Assembly: GCA_023475265.1 (NCBI GenBank)
Contig: JAMCWE010000022.1
Coordinates: forward strand, 1 to 64,000
Source: Bacteroidota bacterium
GTDB taxonomy: Bacteria > Bacteroidota > Ignavibacteria > Ignavibacteriales > Ignavibacteriaceae
Length of the DNA stretch: 64,000 nucleotides
Direction of reading: 5' to 3'
Shown: positions 17,885 to 53,292 of the stretch, piece after piece
Layout: each line of letters starts with the position of its first letter
Numbering within the stretch: the stretch's first letter is position 1
Position numbers and translations under genes: made by a program
Notes under the pieces: generated by a model
Told to the model about the DNA's origin: nothing
Database searches by the model: none
The model's input: the letters and a program-made list of their open reading frames with translations, nothing else

Positions 17885-18250
17885 ATCTTAAAATCTATTT
17901 ATAAATAATAGCATGTAGCTTTTCGCAAAAATTGTGCCTTACAAAATAATCTGAAAACTAATTTTTCTCTTTAGTTTTGTGTTTCAAACTGAGTAAATGG
18001 CACAAAAGGATATATGTTTATTGTTGAATACTCTGTGTGATTTTAATAAGCGCTTAATTTTTGTAATTCAGAGCTGTATATATATAGATTATCGGAGTTC
18101 TGCAATTTTTATTAAGTCATTTAGTAAAACTACAGGCAAATCCAGAAAGCTGTGACTTGTGTACATCTTTTGCGGATCAATTATACCTTTTTCTTTGCTT
18201 TTTAGGTTTCATTCTTAAAGAAAAATTTCGATTTCTTATCAATTTGTGGG

Positions 18251-18523
18251 CTTTGTGCTAGTTTCAGAACGCTATGTGAAGCTTCAATTTAGCTATGTGA
18301 GGTTGATATTTCGTTATGTGCATCCATCAGAACATTATGTGCATCCATCAGAACATTATGTGCATCCATCAGAACATTATGTGCGACTTTAATTTGACTA
18401 TGTGCAGTTTGAATTTCACCATGTGCAGACTTCAGAACGTCATGTGCGGCTACAAATTCGTTATGTGCATACTTCAGAATGCCATGTGAAATTCAAAAAG
18501 CATTATGTGTTGGATTCAAACAG
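18251..18523. repeat. array 1: 13 degenerate tandem units of exactly 21 bp (core YTATGTGC...TTCAGAA)
   Basis: units start at 18251 and every 21 bp to 18503; three consecutive units at 18314-18376 are identical (TTATGTGCATCCATCAGAACA). Confidence 0.92.
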
Positions 18524-18562
18524 CAATATAAATGTTAAAAAATATTTCCTTCCTCCGCGGAA

Positions 18563-45497: not shown

Positions 45498-46756
45498 AAG
45501 TAATTACTAAAATTCTCATAGCTCTCTTTACTATATTACTTACTGAAGAAATCCTTGCACAGGATCCTTTTAATCCTCCGCTTGCAAAAGAAGTTTGGAG
45601 TGAACCTGTCAGAGTAGATTCTTTTGCATTACCTGGCCATTATGAAGCTGAGTTATCATTAACTAATTCTATGGATACAATTTATTTCTTTAGAGATGCT
45701 GATATTTTTAGCTCGGTATTGCATAATAATATATGGTCGTCTCCTAAAAAATTAATTAGTTACATAAATGATGGTAGCCCTTTAAGAAGTCCTGTTATTA
45801 GTAAAGATAGTAAACGATTATACTTTAGCAAATGGGGCGGGTATGGTGCATGGGATTTATACTGCAGTTATTGGGATAGCACAACAAATGATTGGGAACC
45901 TGCACTTAATTTAGGACCGAATATTAATTCTTATTCGGGAGAATATTATGCATACGAATTAAGCCCTGACACTCTTTATTGTATAAATGACAGGTGGGCA
46001 GGGATGGGAGTTTGTATTTATAAAAAGGACAGCTTGACAAAAGATTGGAAAATAATCGATAGCTCAAATTATAATCATCCTTTGGGAGCTGGAGACATTA
46101 GGGGATTAAGTATAACTTCAGATAGAAAGAAAGCCTATTTCAGTCGCTATATATCAGCTTATGATCATACAGGAGATTCACTTCAATCACAATTGTATGT
46201 AACCTATTGGGATAAATTAAATAATAGGTGGGGTGATGTCTACGAATTGAATATTAATTCAAAAGCATATCAGATAAAAGTTAGCGATACTTGGTCATAT
46301 TGGATTGGGGGATGGGATGAATATCCGTGGATATCCCCAGATGGAAAAACTTTATACTTTGTTTCTAATAGAGATGCTGCAAGGAAGGATACTAATCATC
46401 CAAGCCCAGACATTTATATTAGTCATTTAATAGTTGATGACCACGGTGACACGGTTACTGCAATAAACGATAGGGGTAATATTCCTTATAATTATAATCT
46501 TAAGTTATTCCCTAACTACCCCAATCCATTTAATCCCTCAACCACAATAAAGTATATCATCTCAAAATATTCTCATGTTTCTCTTAAAGTTTACGATTTA
46601 TTGGGAAGAGAAGTCCAAACATTAGTAAGCGAAGAAAAACCTGCCGGCGAATATCAAACTATCTTTAGTGCTACAAACCTTTCAAGCGGTGTTTACTTTT
46701 ATATATTAAAGGCAGACGGATATTCTGCAAGCAGAAAATTAATATTATTAAAATAA
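45494..46756 (+). CDS. PD40/WD40-like beta-propeller protein with T9SS type A domain (non-AUG start proposed)
   Basis: YFSKWGGYGAWDLYCSYWD, WISPDGKTLYFVSNRD; the frame is open upstream of the listed ATG (45671) and encodes a signal peptide KVITKILIALFTILLTEEILAQDP from CTG 45494. Confidence 0.75.
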   Translation: MKVITKILIALFTILLTEEILAQDPFNPPLAKEVWSEPVRVDSFALPGHYEAELSLTNSMDTIYFFRDADIFSSVLHNNIWSSPKKLISYINDGSPLRSPVISKDSKRLYFSKWGGYGAWDLYCSYWDSTTNDWEPALNLGPNINSYSGEYYAYELSPDTLYCINDRWAGMGVCIYKKDSLTKDWKIIDSSNYNHPLGAGDIRGLSITSDRKKAYFSRYISAYDHTGDSLQSQLYVTYWDKLNNRWGDVYELNINSKAYQIKVSDTWSYWIGGWDEYPWISPDGKTLYFVSNRDAARKDTNHPSPDIYISHLIVDDHGDTVTAINDRGNIPYNYNLKLFPNYPNPFNPSTTIKYIISKYSHVSLKVYDLLGREVQTLVSEEKPAGEYQTIFSATNLSSGVYFYILKADGYSASRKLILLK

Positions 46757-46783
46757 TATTGACAGGTTCAATATGAAAAAGTA
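46514..46783 (+). repeat. T9SS C-terminal cassette, copy A
   Basis: aligns at a constant 742-bp offset with 47256-47525 with only scattered substitutions. Confidence 0.9.
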
Positions 46784-47498
46784 CTATTACTTTTCGTTAT
46801 TTTTTTGTTTTTCCTTCAATCTCACATGGGCGCAACAAATAGCTGTTGATAAGGATAGCTTGAAAATATTTGGCAGGGGCGATACACTTTATGTTTATAA
46901 TATTGATGACTCTACACTTACAATAAATTCTCTTTATTCTGTTAATCCAATATACGGATATTGGCTAACTATTTCGACAAAAGATTCTTCATTTCCATAT
47001 TATTTTGCCCATAATTATAAAAGACCCTTAGAGTTAAAATTAAGAAATAACGAAGCAATTAAATTCATTTTTGAGCGAGTAGATTTATGTACTGCTTGTA
47101 AGAGAAGTTCAACAAATGAATATTTTAGAGATACGGTAAAGTTAATATCTAATTCTAAACAAAACGACACGTTGCTTCTATTTGTTGAAGGTGATGGAAT
47201 TCTCTCATCCATTAATAATGAAAATAATTTATCTTTTGAATATATATTATATCAAAACTACCCCAATCCATTTAACCCCTCAACCACAATAAAGTATATC
47301 ATCTCAAAATATTCTCATGTTTCTCTTAAAGTTTACGATTTATTGGGAAGAGAAGTCCAAACATTAGTAAGCGAAGAAAAACCTGCCGGCAAATATCAAA
47401 CTATCTTTAATGCTACAAACCTTTCAAGCGGTGTTTACATATACGTATTAAGGACAGAAGGATATTCTGCAAGCAGAAAGTTAATATTATTAAAATAA
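46773..47498 (+). CDS. secreted hypothetical protein with T9SS type A domain
   Basis: signal peptide MKKYYYFSLFFCFSFNLTWAQQ; C-terminus nearly identical to the preceding gene. Confidence 0.8.
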   Translation: MKKYYYFSLFFCFSFNLTWAQQIAVDKDSLKIFGRGDTLYVYNIDDSTLTINSLYSVNPIYGYWLTISTKDSSFPYYFAHNYKRPLELKLRNNEAIKFIFERVDLCTACKRSSTNEYFRDTVKLISNSKQNDTLLLFVEGDGILSSINNENNLSFEYILYQNYPNPFNPSTTIKYIISKYSHVSLKVYDLLGREVQTLVSEEKPAGKYQTIFNATNLSSGVYIYVLRTEGYSASRKLILLK

Positions 47499-47525
47499 TA
47501 TTGGGAGGTACAATATGAAAAAACC
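47256..47525 (+). repeat. T9SS C-terminal cassette, copy B, extending through the intergenic spacer into an ATGAAAAAA stub
   Basis: constant 742-bp offset from copy A; ends in ATGAAAAAACCAATATAG (MKKPI*). Confidence 0.9.
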
Positions 47526-47578
47526 AATATAGAACTGCAATAATAAAAAAATCCCTTTACCTATTTAGGAGAATAAAT

Positions 47579-48451
47579 ATGAAAAAAATAATTGTAATAT
47601 CTGTTTTTGCAACTGTAATTGTCTTTGCACAAGGACCCAATCCATACAGCTTCTTCCCTTCTTCTGTTGGGAATGTGTGGGAATATAGTACAACTGGTGG
47701 TTTAGAGAGATATGAAATTATTTCAACATCTGTTGATTCAATGGGAAATAAAATAATTTTTTTTAATCATGGCACATATGTATTAGACACACTCTTGCAT
47801 GTATATAAGTATCCCTTTAGCCTCAACTGGTTGTATTATAAACTTGATGCCGATTCAGGCGAATCTTGGATTGTTCAAACTAACATTAACAATCAAGATA
47901 CAACCTACACATTAGCTAAGGTTACAGAAAAGTTCCCAGCATTAGTATTTGGAGATACCACAATAGTAATGGGAATTCGATATTATCTTCAACAGCGAGA
48001 CACAATAATAGATTCAGTAGATGAAAGTTATCCTGGACAAAGTTGGATAGATTACCTTGCTGCCGGTATTGGACTTATCGAACAATGGGATATTGAACTC
48101 GGACCAACAATGGTATTAAGAGGCTGCATTATTGATGGCGATACCTTAGGTTATATAACATCTATACAGAATAATTCTGATATGCCGTTAACTTACAAAC
48201 TGTATCAAAACTATCCTAATCCATTTAATCCAATAACAAAAATAAGATACACTTTAGCTAAACCTGACTATGTAAGGATAATTGTCTACTCAATTTTAGG
48301 AAAGGAGGTAAAAGTACTGATAGACAAATATCAATCATCCGGTGAACATGAAGTTGAATTCAATGCTGAAAATCTACCAAGCGGTGTTTATATATATTCT
48401 TTAATTAGCAGTCGTTTTTCTTCGCATAGAAAAATGATTTACTTAAAATAA
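47579..48451 (+). CDS. secreted hypothetical protein with T9SS type A domain
   Basis: signal peptide; SFFPSSVGNVWEYSTTGG; C-terminal NPFNPITKIRYTLAKPDYVRIIVYSILGKEVKVL. Confidence 0.78.
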   Translation: MKKIIVISVFATVIVFAQGPNPYSFFPSSVGNVWEYSTTGGLERYEIISTSVDSMGNKIIFFNHGTYVLDTLLHVYKYPFSLNWLYYKLDADSGESWIVQTNINNQDTTYTLAKVTEKFPALVFGDTTIVMGIRYYLQQRDTIIDSVDESYPGQSWIDYLAAGIGLIEQWDIELGPTMVLRGCIIDGDTLGYITSIQNNSDMPLTYKLYQNYPNPFNPITKIRYTLAKPDYVRIIVYSILGKEVKVLIDKYQSSGEHEVEFNAENLPSGVYIYSLISSRFSSHRKMIYLK

Positions 48452-48465
48452 TTATAAAGAGAGGT

Positions 48466-51400
48466 ATGAAAATGAAAAAATTATTTTTTCTTTTGTTTGT
48501 CTTAATCCCTTTATTATTAACTCACGCTGATATTGGGGATGAAATTGATAATTGTACATCATCACCATCATTCGTTTGGAACGGCGAAATAGGAGGGTTA
48601 TATCTTCCTTCAGAAGGCGCAATTAAAGTCTTATTTATATTTGCACAGTTTCCTGACGATAATTTTGCCGGCAATTCAAGCTGGTACTTAGGACAGGCTC
48701 CAGCCAATATGAATAGCTGGGTTGATGAAACATGGAGTAGTAGCCCAACACAAAATTCAATAACAGATTATTTTAATGTAATGTCATGGGACCATACAAC
48801 GAATACTGCTAAATTAAAATTTACTGGTAAGTCTTTTTCAGTAGTTACACCTCATACTAGGCAGTGGTATTTAGATAATCATAAACAATACGGAGATATT
48901 AATAAAGAAATTATACAACAATTAGATACCGATCCGACATGGAGTTTTGCACAATTTGATAATTGGCATTATAATTCAAATTTTAGTTTCACAAACAGCC
49001 CTGATGGCATTGTTGAAATGGTTATTGTTATATGGAGGAATATTGCAAATGAATTTTCAACAAAACATGATAAGGATAGCATATATTCAGCTTTAAATAT
49101 GGGGCGTTGGGGTGATTTGGGAGGAAGTAATTTTACAGTGGATGGAGGAGCCAGAACAATAAAAACGGGTTATGGAGGCGGGGGCGGGGGCGCAACTATA
49201 TGCGATTGGTACTCAGCAGACATGTTTCGTTTCAGTATTCATGAATTTTCTCATTACTTATTGGGTGATAATACTTATCATAATGGTTTTGGTTTTTGGG
49301 CAATGCTTTCTGGGTATGAACCACGTTCCTACATGATAAATTCTTATGAACGGTACCGACTTGGATGGGGAAATATAATTAATTTAAGTAATACTGGCTC
49401 AAATATTTTAAATGAACCCCTTACCGATTTTATTACTACTGGTAAAGCATATAGAATAGAGATAGATGCATCAACAAATCAATACTTTTACATTGAAAAC
49501 CATCAGAAAATTTCTTATTGGGACAAATGCTCTGGCGATTCATATCCTGATGATAAAGGAATATTTATAATGAGGCAAGATAGAGGTGGTTCTTCCAATT
49601 TGCAAGCTGCAGATTGGATGTACATGATACCGGCAGATGGTAGATATAACTGGAGTGTAAACCAATATGTGTATCCGGATTATTACCCGGCTGGTGTTCC
49701 TGTTTTCAAGAAGCTGGAAGAGAATCATATAACGGGTTATGATGAACTACAACCTATACCATTTACTTATCAGGGCGTTCCAAAATCTCCTTTTGAAGTT
49801 TTGTTTCTTGAAGACCCAATTACCGGTCAGTCAATAGAACATACAGCTCGAAATGGTTTTGGTCATGATGCATTTCGAATTGGTTATAAAACTGAATTTT
49901 ATCCTTGGTCAAATCCTAACAATCAAAAAGCAAATCAAAGTACAACAAATATTGGTATTAAAGTAAATAGCATTAACGGTAGTACAATAAACATAGATAT
50001 TTATCGAGATTGTAATGAATATAATATTACACGCAATGCTACTTTGGCTCCCGGAACTTGGAATATCAATCAAAATGTTACCGTAAATAGTGGCGTTAGC
50101 TTGACCATTCAGCCGGGTACAAATTTGGTCTTTACCAACGGTGCTTCTTTAATTGTAAACGGTAACTTAAATATATCAGGAACAAGTGCATCAAATGTTG
50201 TACTTGATTTTGTTTCTCCCTCTACATCCCCAATAAATTGTATTTGGGCATACGCAGGCAGCCAGATAAATATTGATTATGCGGAAATTAAAAACGCCGC
50301 ACTTGCAATATGGGCAAGCGATGCCGAAGTTCATATTGATCACAGTAATTTACACAATATGATCAAACCCGTCTATTTCTATAATTTACTCTCCAATTCT
50401 TACGGAAGTACCATAAAAAATACGTACATAAAAAACTCTTCATACGAAGGAGTTTGGCTTCGTAATTCTTCAACTTATTTGGAGAACAATAAAATAACAA
50501 ATAATTCCGGCGAGGGTCTCCGACTATCATCTTACAGCGATCCGGTTTTACTAAGGAATACTATAGAAAATAACCGTAACGGAATAACTGTGCAGGTAAA
50601 TTGTACACCTGCACTATCGGGATTCAATTTAATAGATGGTAACACCTATTATGGTATTTATGCCAATAATTACGGAATAGTTCTGGCAGATCAAGGTTTT
50701 AATACATTTCAAATAACAAACGGATATAATGTTTACTTATCTTTTTATTCTCAGACATATGCTTCTGAAAATTATTGGGGAGTTTATCCGCCTGATGTAA
50801 ACAAATTTTATGCTGATGGAACAAGTTTCCTGGATTACAGTACCCCCTTACCCAGCAATCCCGGTTCAGGCTCAAACCTTCCGAAAGCAGGGCAGCAATC
50901 GGACTTACATTTAGCATACAATAATATAATAGAAGGGAATTACAGTGATGCTGAAAAACTATTTAAAAAAATAATAAATGAAAAATTCAATGACAAAGAA
51001 GCCAGATATGCTCTAAGCGGATTAGCTGCATGTTATAGAAAAAGCAAGAAAGACGGGTTTAAGAAGTATTTGGAAGATGAATTAAAACCAAAATTTAACA
51101 ATACAAAAAATGATCTTTATATGCTCTATTTGGAACTTGATTCATATTACTTAACACAAGAAGGGAAATATAATGAAGCGCTTGATAATCTAAAATTAAT
51201 ACGTGATAATTACCCGCTTGATAGCGAAACGAGGAAAGAATTGAATTTCCAGGAGGGTGTGATAAACTTAGTATATAAAGATAATGCGGAAGGAGCGAAA
51301 TCAATATTCGATAAAATTAAGAATGATTACCCTGACGAAAGGACAAAATTTGATGTTGACATTTTGTTGGCAGCATATAATAACGGTGGTTGCTCTTTGC

Positions 51401-51741
51401 TTAAAAATGGGAACCTTAAAAATAATTTGGATGAAAGCTTTGGCCGGAAAGAAGAGGTACCTGTTGAGTACGGGTTATATCAGAATTACCCCAACCCATT
51501 CAACCCAACAACAGCGATCCGCTATCAGCTTTCAGCGGACAGCTATGTTACTCTAAAAATTTACGACGAACTTGGACGAGAAGTAAAAACTCTTGTAAAT
51601 CAATATCAAGATAAAGGAAGATATGATATAAATTTCAATGCAAGCAATCTTGCAAGTGGAATTTATTTCTATCAACTGCATGCATCTACAGGCTCGGTAC
51701 AAAGCTTTGTTTCAACAAAAAAGATGCTGCTTTTAAAATAG
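48466..51741 (+). CDS. M6-like metalloprotease with right-handed beta-helix region, TPR-like segment and T9SS type A domain
   Basis: zinc motif HEFSHYLLGD; beta-helix NSSTYLENNKITNNSGEGLRLSSYSDPVLLRNTIENNRNGI; NPFNPTTAIRYQL C-terminus. Confidence 0.82.
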   Translation: MKMKKLFFLLFVLIPLLLTHADIGDEIDNCTSSPSFVWNGEIGGLYLPSEGAIKVLFIFAQFPDDNFAGNSSWYLGQAPANMNSWVDETWSSSPTQNSITDYFNVMSWDHTTNTAKLKFTGKSFSVVTPHTRQWYLDNHKQYGDINKEIIQQLDTDPTWSFAQFDNWHYNSNFSFTNSPDGIVEMVIVIWRNIANEFSTKHDKDSIYSALNMGRWGDLGGSNFTVDGGARTIKTGYGGGGGGATICDWYSADMFRFSIHEFSHYLLGDNTYHNGFGFWAMLSGYEPRSYMINSYERYRLGWGNIINLSNTGSNILNEPLTDFITTGKAYRIEIDASTNQYFYIENHQKISYWDKCSGDSYPDDKGIFIMRQDRGGSSNLQAADWMYMIPADGRYNWSVNQYVYPDYYPAGVPVFKKLEENHITGYDELQPIPFTYQGVPKSPFEVLFLEDPITGQSIEHTARNGFGHDAFRIGYKTEFYPWSNPNNQKANQSTTNIGIKVNSINGSTINIDIYRDCNEYNITRNATLAPGTWNINQNVTVNSGVSLTIQPGTNLVFTNGASLIVNGNLNISGTSASNVVLDFVSPSTSPINCIWAYAGSQINIDYAEIKNAALAIWASDAEVHIDHSNLHNMIKPVYFYNLLSNSYGSTIKNTYIKNSSYEGVWLRNSSTYLENNKITNNSGEGLRLSSYSDPVLLRNTIENNRNGITVQVNCTPALSGFNLIDGNTYYGIYANNYGIVLADQGFNTFQITNGYNVYLSFYSQTYASENYWGVYPPDVNKFYADGTSFLDYSTPLPSNPGSGSNLPKAGQQSDLHLAYNNIIEGNYSDAEKLFKKIINEKFNDKEARYALSGLAACYRKSKKDGFKKYLEDELKPKFNNTKNDLYMLYLELDSYYLTQEGKYNEALDNLKLIRDNYPLDSETRKELNFQEGVINLVYKDNAEGAKSIFDKIKNDYPDERTKFDVDILLAAYNNGGCSLLKNGNLKNNLDESFGRKEEVPVEYGLYQNYPNPFNPTTAIRYQLSADSYVTLKIYDELGREVKTLVNQYQDKGRYDINFNASNLASGIYFYQLHASTGSVQSFVSTKKMLLLK

Positions 51742-51867: not shown

Positions 51868-52572
51868 TTACTGCTGTGGTGTGGTACTATTTGCGGCGGG
51901 CGGATTTTCATCCTTGCTATCGTGCCTTACGCCTGTGTTGACAAGCTTACGCGCTACAAAATATCCAGATGCTAGTTCCGGCTTCTTAAGCTTTAATGTG
52001 TTTATGTGTTTGTCCTCTTCTTCCCACAATGCCAGCAGCTCAGTATATAATTTTTCAAGCTTAGCAGTCTCTTCTGTGCTGAGCTTTCTGCTGCTTCCCG
52101 CATCTCCAATTGAATCTTTATATTCTTCTGCAAGCGCTTTGTGCTCGGTTATTTCCTCAGGTGTAATATCATAATCATCAAGCACGGCCTTGTTTTCATC
52201 GGCAAGCTTGTTTATCTCAAGCGCCGCATTGTACAGGTTATCTTCTCTCATACCGCTGAAGCCCGATTCTGTTGTATCTGTATTTTCAGCCAAATCAGTA
52301 ATTGAGTTGGCAGTTGCGTATGAATGCAGCGATGAGGCAAAGTTATAAGTAATTTCCTCCAGCTTTGCCCTTAATGAATTTTTTGTGGTTGTCTTACCGG
52401 ATTTAATTGTGCCCTTGCCGCTTTGCAATTCCTCTATTTCTTTCAGCTTTTGCTCAATACGGGTTTTTGTGGCAAGTATTATTGCAGGCTTTACGATCAA
52501 TGCTGCAATGGAAGTAAGGTATGCTAAGACCGCTAAGGTCATGTGATACCAGGTGCTTTGTTTATCGTTCAT
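51868..52572 (-). CDS. hypothetical protein with N-terminal TM segment and Glu/Lys-rich helical body
   Basis: 234 aa; AVLAYLTSIAALIVKPAIILATKTRIEQKLKEIEELQ. Confidence 0.6.
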   Translation of the reverse strand: MNDKQSTWYHMTLAVLAYLTSIAALIVKPAIILATKTRIEQKLKEIEELQSGKGTIKSGKTTTKNSLRAKLEEITYNFASSLHSYATANSITDLAENTDTTESGFSGMREDNLYNAALEINKLADENKAVLDDYDITPEEITEHKALAEEYKDSIGDAGSSRKLSTEETAKLEKLYTELLALWEEEDKHINTLKLKKPELASGYFVARKLVNTGVRHDSKDENPPAANSTTPQQ

Positions 52573-52671
52573 TTTACTATCCTCCTATTATTATTGATTG
52601 TTAATTATTCCCTCATTGTAAGGGACGAAGTTCGATTTTTAATCAATTTTAAGCTTTTTACTATTAACAAC

Positions 52672-53049
52672 TCTCATAAAACTACAGCCGTCATGCATTT
52701 TACTGTCGCGTGGGCTCATTTTTCGCCTGTCACCGTGCATTTGATCACGGTAAATGTGCGTTTGATTACAGTCGTGACGTATTGTTTTTCCGTCGATTAT
52801 CATTTATTCTCCGTCAATTTGCACCTAATCACAGTCAGCTAGTATTTGGATATAGTTCATGCTCATTTTTTAAACGTAAGATTACATTTATCGCACGTAA
52901 GTTTTCATTTAGCTCCTGTCATTCTTCATTTTTCTTAAGTCGGAAATCATTTAACTCGAGCCGGACTTCATTCAGCAAAAGTAAATTGTCTTCCGGCGTA
53001 AGTGAGCGGGCATTTAACCTAAGCCGGCAAGCATTTTTAAAAAGTAAAT
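52672..53049. repeat. array 2: 18 degenerate tandem units of exactly 21 bp (core nnnCATTT......GTMA)
   Basis: units start at 52672 and every 21 bp to 53029; CATTT or a one-base variant at unit positions 4-8 in most units; GTAA/GTC-like core at 16-19. Confidence 0.88.
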
Positions 53050-53292
53050 ACACTTCCATCGATTGCATAAGAACAATTTATTAACTCTAAAAAACTAACA
53101 AATACACCTGGATAAAATAAGTTGGAATGTTAAATTTTCCCCATCCCAATTTACAATCAAAACTTAAGGTTATGTTTTTTATTAATCAAGCTGTTGTAGG
53201 ATTTTTTTCAACTCCCCAGCTGTTTCATCGGAAATAACTTCTGCCTTCAATATTCTTTATTCGATGTTCGTTATTCAAAAACAAATTCCGAA

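Follow-up and report, generated by a model that had tools for sequence, protein, structure and literature searches.

Tandem DNA repeats beside the gene of the protein that binds them are known from plasmid partition systems, where small adaptors bind centromeres (ParR/parC, TubR/tubC and omega/parS). In these systems the repeats usually lie just upstream of the adaptor gene, the adaptor binds each repeat and autoregulates, and the C-terminal tail of ParR projects from the filament (PMC5016525). Iterons of theta-replicating plasmids are a second parallel, in that they are typically direct repeats spaced about two helical turns next to the gene of the Rep initiator that binds them, and iteron sets without rep can probably act in trans. 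TIGR arrays, associated with Tas proteins, have repeats that are constant within a locus but differ between loci, and lie upstream or downstream of the effector gene (PMC12045711). REP/BIME repeats, associated with RAYT transposases, are dispersed intergenic repeats of ~20-40 bp.

Here we describe an array of degenerate 21-bp repeats in a Bacteroidota bacterium (Ignavibacteriaceae; GCA_023475265.1), within a window of 64,000 nucleotides (contig JAMCWE010000022.1, positions 1 to 64,000). The array lies directly upstream of an uncharacterised gene and belongs to a class of array-protein pairs found across the Bacteroidota-Ignavibacteria group, in which the spacing of two turns of DNA stays fixed while the repeated core changes from locus to locus together with the neighbouring protein. 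The pairing is directly observed, whereas binding of the array by the adjacent protein is inferred. We found no paper on 21-bp arrays in this group or on PQLLE proteins in the open-access literature searched, although absence there is not proof of novelty.

A degenerate 21-bp array upstream of an uncharacterised gene

The features of the window discussed here are as follows.

52693..53049, minus strand: array 2, 17 in-register 21-bp units with the plus-strand core nnnCATTTnnnnnnnGTmnnn (gene-sense ATGnnnnntgaCnntngnnAA); non-coding, with a non-palindromic core.
52672..52692, minus strand: weak or decayed 18th unit at the gene-proximal end of array 2.
51868..52572, minus strand: array-linked gene for a 234-aa protein (family A), predicted to be all-helical with a disordered C-terminal tail.
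52580..52585, minus strand: ribosome-binding site GGAGGA, 7 nt before the ATG, in a ~100-nt leader between gene and array.
18255..18527, no strand assigned: array 1, ~13 units of 21 bp with core TATGTGCa, an orphan array lying between divergent genes.
52543..52842, plus strand: spurious ORF across array 2.
52710..53084, plus strand: second spurious ORF across array 2.

The units of array 2 run in one 21-bp register without indels. CATTT at unit positions 4-8 is exact in 11 of 17 units and matches in at least 4 of 5 positions in 14 of 17, and G-T at positions 16-17 occurs in 14 of 17. Identity at lags 21, 42 and 63 is 0.518, 0.441 and 0.548, while 2000 dinucleotide-preserving shuffles give 0.268 +/- 0.024 with a maximum of 0.351, and the largest shuffle value over all lags 10-60 is 0.367. 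In a scan of the whole window over lags 10-79, the two strongest local periodicities are array 1 (18250-18530; z 13) and array 2 (z 11), both with period 21, and the next best reaches z 5.9. We searched for a second conserved cluster one turn away within the unit and found none. The array lies ~100 bp upstream of the minus-strand gene, and beside the module is a row of T9SS sorting-domain proteins (45671-51741) ending in a large beta-helix protein.

An earlier note, made from the sequence alone, described array 2 as 18 units, inferred that its periodicity is at the DNA level rather than that of a heptad-repeat protein, placed arrays 1 and 2 in one class with conserved period and diverging core, and raised an association with the 234-aa protein family. 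These inferences are supported by the comparisons below, which further reveal that several other protein families, one of them a helix-turn-helix protein, share the same arrangement.

The 234-aa protein has no convincing family in searches of Pfam, NCBIfam, PDB sequences, PADLOC and PHROGs. Two AF2 models (pLDDT 78 and 83) are all-helical without beta strand, and Foldseek comparison returned only weak coiled-coil or helical-bundle resemblances, none with E<0.001. No relatives were found among viral contigs, phages and plasmids for the queries tried, with one family member tested against plasmids. The protein does not reach the curated cut-off of 80 bits for the NCBIfam model NF052641 ('PQLLE family protein', an uncharacterised name only). 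An Rfam scan of the window likewise gave no hit.

Arrays and protein families across the genome and its relatives

A three-unit CATTT pattern at 21-bp spacing gave 61 hits in the genome against 12 for the reversed control, and these hits lay in many different arrays. In 1.29 Mb of the 4.77-Mb genome, a sample partly enriched for arrays, strong noncoding degenerate arrays over lags 8-99 comprised 17 with period 21, 10 with period 42, and one each with periods 41, 43, 63 and 84. Other periods were almost absent (8 and 12, once each), and one locus with a 63-bp period (L055; loci are numbered with the prefix L) was set aside as probably coding. In 853 kb not chosen for arrays, 2.0% of random 1.5-kb windows contain one, and in 200 kb each of a closed relative without the family (genome G013) and of genome G038 the figures are 0.3% and 1.3%.

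Homologs of the 234-aa protein are encoded in 12 of 59 related genomes, often several in each, and 22 of 30 such loci have an array upstream. Other arrays of the genome led to other small proteins: the B2 and PQLLE-like (P) group, B1, B3, a helical protein with an fn3-like end (F), and a 117-aa protein with a Cro/C1-type HTH domain (H; PF13443, E 4e-9 and 7e-11). Profile-profile comparison links P to B2 (99.6%) and to family A (92.7%). Searching for homologs without regard to arrays, we find an array centre upstream in 10/22 B2, 6/7 B3, 14/16 PQLLE-like, 4/9 B1 (the other 5/9 downstream), 11/15 F and 11/14 H loci, the last including 11 of 12 full-length homologs. In total 78 of 113 homologous loci have an array upstream, against 0.3-3.4% for random 1.5-kb windows. 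The starting loci in the window genome, which were found through their arrays, are included in these counts, whereas homologs in other genomes were not found in this way; about a third of homologous loci show no array above threshold, some of them at contig ends. The B1 loci with the array on the 3' side of the gene form a subfamily (L188, L192, L193 and L194 in genome G019, L189 in genome G008), and the PQLLE-like loci include other classes of the phylum. The genes are under purifying selection (dN/dS 0.09-0.20), and many of the proteins end in a disordered, proline-rich tail.

The spacing is that of the DNA helix. The best lag is 21 in 59 of 64 gene-linked arrays, with 42 or 41 at the double period. 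Relatives in Stygiobacter and other Ignavibacteria have arrays of period 41 (alternating 20 and 21) in front of the same gene family, and one array has a period of 43. The mean spacing of 20.5-21.5 bp corresponds to two turns of B-DNA.

Cores diverge together with the protein. Similarity of array cores is 0.28 between families, 0.41 at 40-55% protein identity, 0.55 at 55-75% and 0.73 above 75%, and in families A, B1, B2, B3 and P it appears only on the same strand relative to the gene. Part of this co-divergence is expected from joint inheritance. In the H and F families, whose arrays are often palindromic, similarity is the same on both strands, as expected for palindromes but not an independent sign of orientation. 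Between old array duplicates that have drifted apart, core positions are 0.84-0.86 identical and free positions 0.43-0.55, in register. Identity falls only from 0.52 to 0.46 over 11 units. Between paralogs the core persists after unit-by-unit homology is largely lost, and some arrays are nearly perfect (scores of 0.84-0.92), so units are still being duplicated in steps of 21 or 42. The core is therefore constrained while units turn over. A relative's copy of the window's module (L059:1360-2040, genome G005), in which a short remnant array is joined directly to the middle of the gene, is apparently a decayed module.

Each orphan core cluster examined has a gene-linked partner. Array 1 has no gene of these families beside it, but its core, ATGTG at 21-bp spacing, occurs in only three strong arrays of the genome (24 pattern hits, 0 in the reversed control): array 1, the orphan C233:21364-21452 and the array C134:11436-11713 (contigs carry the prefix C), which lies directly in front of a frameshifted member of family A. 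This gene (L246:509-1210) is split into two frames by a frameshift or an assembly error, so the partner of array 1 may be broken in this genome; next to the C134 module lies a protein with a near-perfect repeat AFAQSNSQLDELGSRY (L246:2084-2821). Similarly, L044 matches the gene-linked L102 (0.91), L037 matches L036 (0.84), L039 matches L033 (0.72), and L032/L035:4203 match L157 (0.62-0.82), where the 99.9% null value is 0.56. A further array, at L168, lies upstream of an A-family gene. No same-core partner was found for array 2 by pattern.

Possible roles of the arrays

We favour, with moderate confidence, the reading that array 2 and its gene form one module, a DNA recognition array and its cognate protein. 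The array presents one copy of a locus-specific core every two helical turns, so all copies face the same side of the helix. The neighbouring protein would recognise this core, bind many units in register and build a nucleoprotein filament or cluster, much as ParR does on parC, TubR on tubC or Rep on iterons, and the disordered C-terminal tails would then be displayed as a multivalent surface. Because the array lies just upstream of the gene in most cases, autoregulation is a likely first output, and orphan arrays with the same core would be bound in trans (titration, bridging or regulation). Direct binding is best supported for the HTH group, where the array sits in front of a recognised DNA-binding protein and several arrays are palindromic, as a dimer would require. 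For the helical families binding is inferred by analogy: their models show no known DNA-binding fold and no significant PDB match, and family A proteins are mostly acidic (pI ~5.2-6).

The described systems each match this arrangement only in part. Like partition centromeres, the modules have tandem repeats adjacent to a small protein gene and proteins with disordered C-tails, but no ParM, TubZ or ParA was seen in the neighbourhoods inspected, the contigs are of chromosomal type, there are many modules per genome with different cores, and the helical families lack an RHH or winged-helix fold, while the H group has a Cro/C1-type HTH instead. Like iterons, the repeats are direct and phased at two helical turns, but they number 15-35 degenerate units rather than ~4-7 near-exact ones, and no Rep or winged-helix domain was found. 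TIGR arrays have 36-nt units rather than 21/42, and no Nop domain was found here. Relative to REP/BIME repeats, array 2 units are not palindromic (self-complementarity 0.27, p 0.84), the tandem register is a regular 21 bp, and there is one core per array rather than one per genome.

A broader possibility, which we regard as tentative, is a previously undescribed Bacteroidota-wide recognition system in which several protein families, including all-helical proteins with no known DNA-binding fold, each pair with a private array of 21-bp sites. In this view new specificities arise repeatedly by duplication and joint divergence of array and protein, and same-core orphan arrays form a trans-acting network (chromosome bridging, dosage or regulation). 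If the recognition-array reading is right, it gives a function class to several large families of hypothetical proteins and to a kind of intergenic repeat that ordinary repeat finders miss because the units are only about 50% alike. It would also offer a natural series of many protein-array pairs in which DNA specificity evolves, and an explanation for degenerate 21-bp arrays that otherwise look like heptad-repeat ORFs.

An RNA-level role, in which the repeats act in the transcript (5' or 3' untranslated region, or processed small RNAs) as binding sites or guides for the adjacent protein in the manner of TIGR arrays and Tas proteins, is unlikely but remains the strongest alternative. Core orientation is fixed relative to the gene in families A, B1, B2, B3 and P, arrays can lie on either side of the gene, and repeats vary between loci. 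In addition, the gene-sense strand is purine-rich in 52-55 of 64 arrays (AT skew +0.13, GC skew +0.15) while the flanks are not, which could mean that transcription of the array matters. However, the period matches B-DNA, one array-linked family is a DNA-binding HTH protein, orphan arrays lie between unrelated genes, and the cores are degenerate rather than exact repeats. The arrays are slightly more self-complementary than column shuffles, but equally so on both strands, which we read as DNA dyads in some families rather than RNA-specific structure.

Somewhat less likely still is a platform for a third-party general factor, such as a nucleoid protein or regulator, with the adjacent protein only the regulated product. 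Most arrays lie 20-250 bp upstream of a start codon, and AT-rich arrays could suit a nucleoid-associated protein. Nevertheless, cores differ between loci and diverge with the adjacent protein, some arrays are GC-rich (genome G143), distant B1 members carry the array 3' of the gene, and the HTH protein has its own array.

A heptad-repeat protein gene is very unlikely: although 22 of 64 gene-linked arrays leave at least one frame open and open frames cross array 2 as by-products of a period divisible by 3, 42 of 64 have stops in all six frames, open frames occur on either strand, and a seven-codon repeat cannot produce the 41-bp periods at the same genes.

Mobile-element or slippage debris, in which 21-bp tandem duplications are spread by IS200-like (Y1) transposases and decay neutrally, is also improbable given that the core is retained in register while free positions saturate, the genes are under purifying selection, the same pairing occurs in several unrelated families across classes of the phylum, and the period is almost always 21 or 42. 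A link between module spread and Y1 transposases is nonetheless suggested by the observation that four of the genome's nine Y1 transposase genes lie beside array modules (C5:33692-34036, C34:16969-17244, C209:44294-44638 and C201:22776-23117), as in the order array, PQLLE-like gene, transposase on C5 and C34, and near-identical module copies occur on C5, C34 and C217. Near-identical copies of one module (L033:15104-15300, L031 and L040) also share an upstream flank with an inverted repeat (AGAACTAATTGCAT...CAATTAGTTCT), a possible end of a mobile unit.
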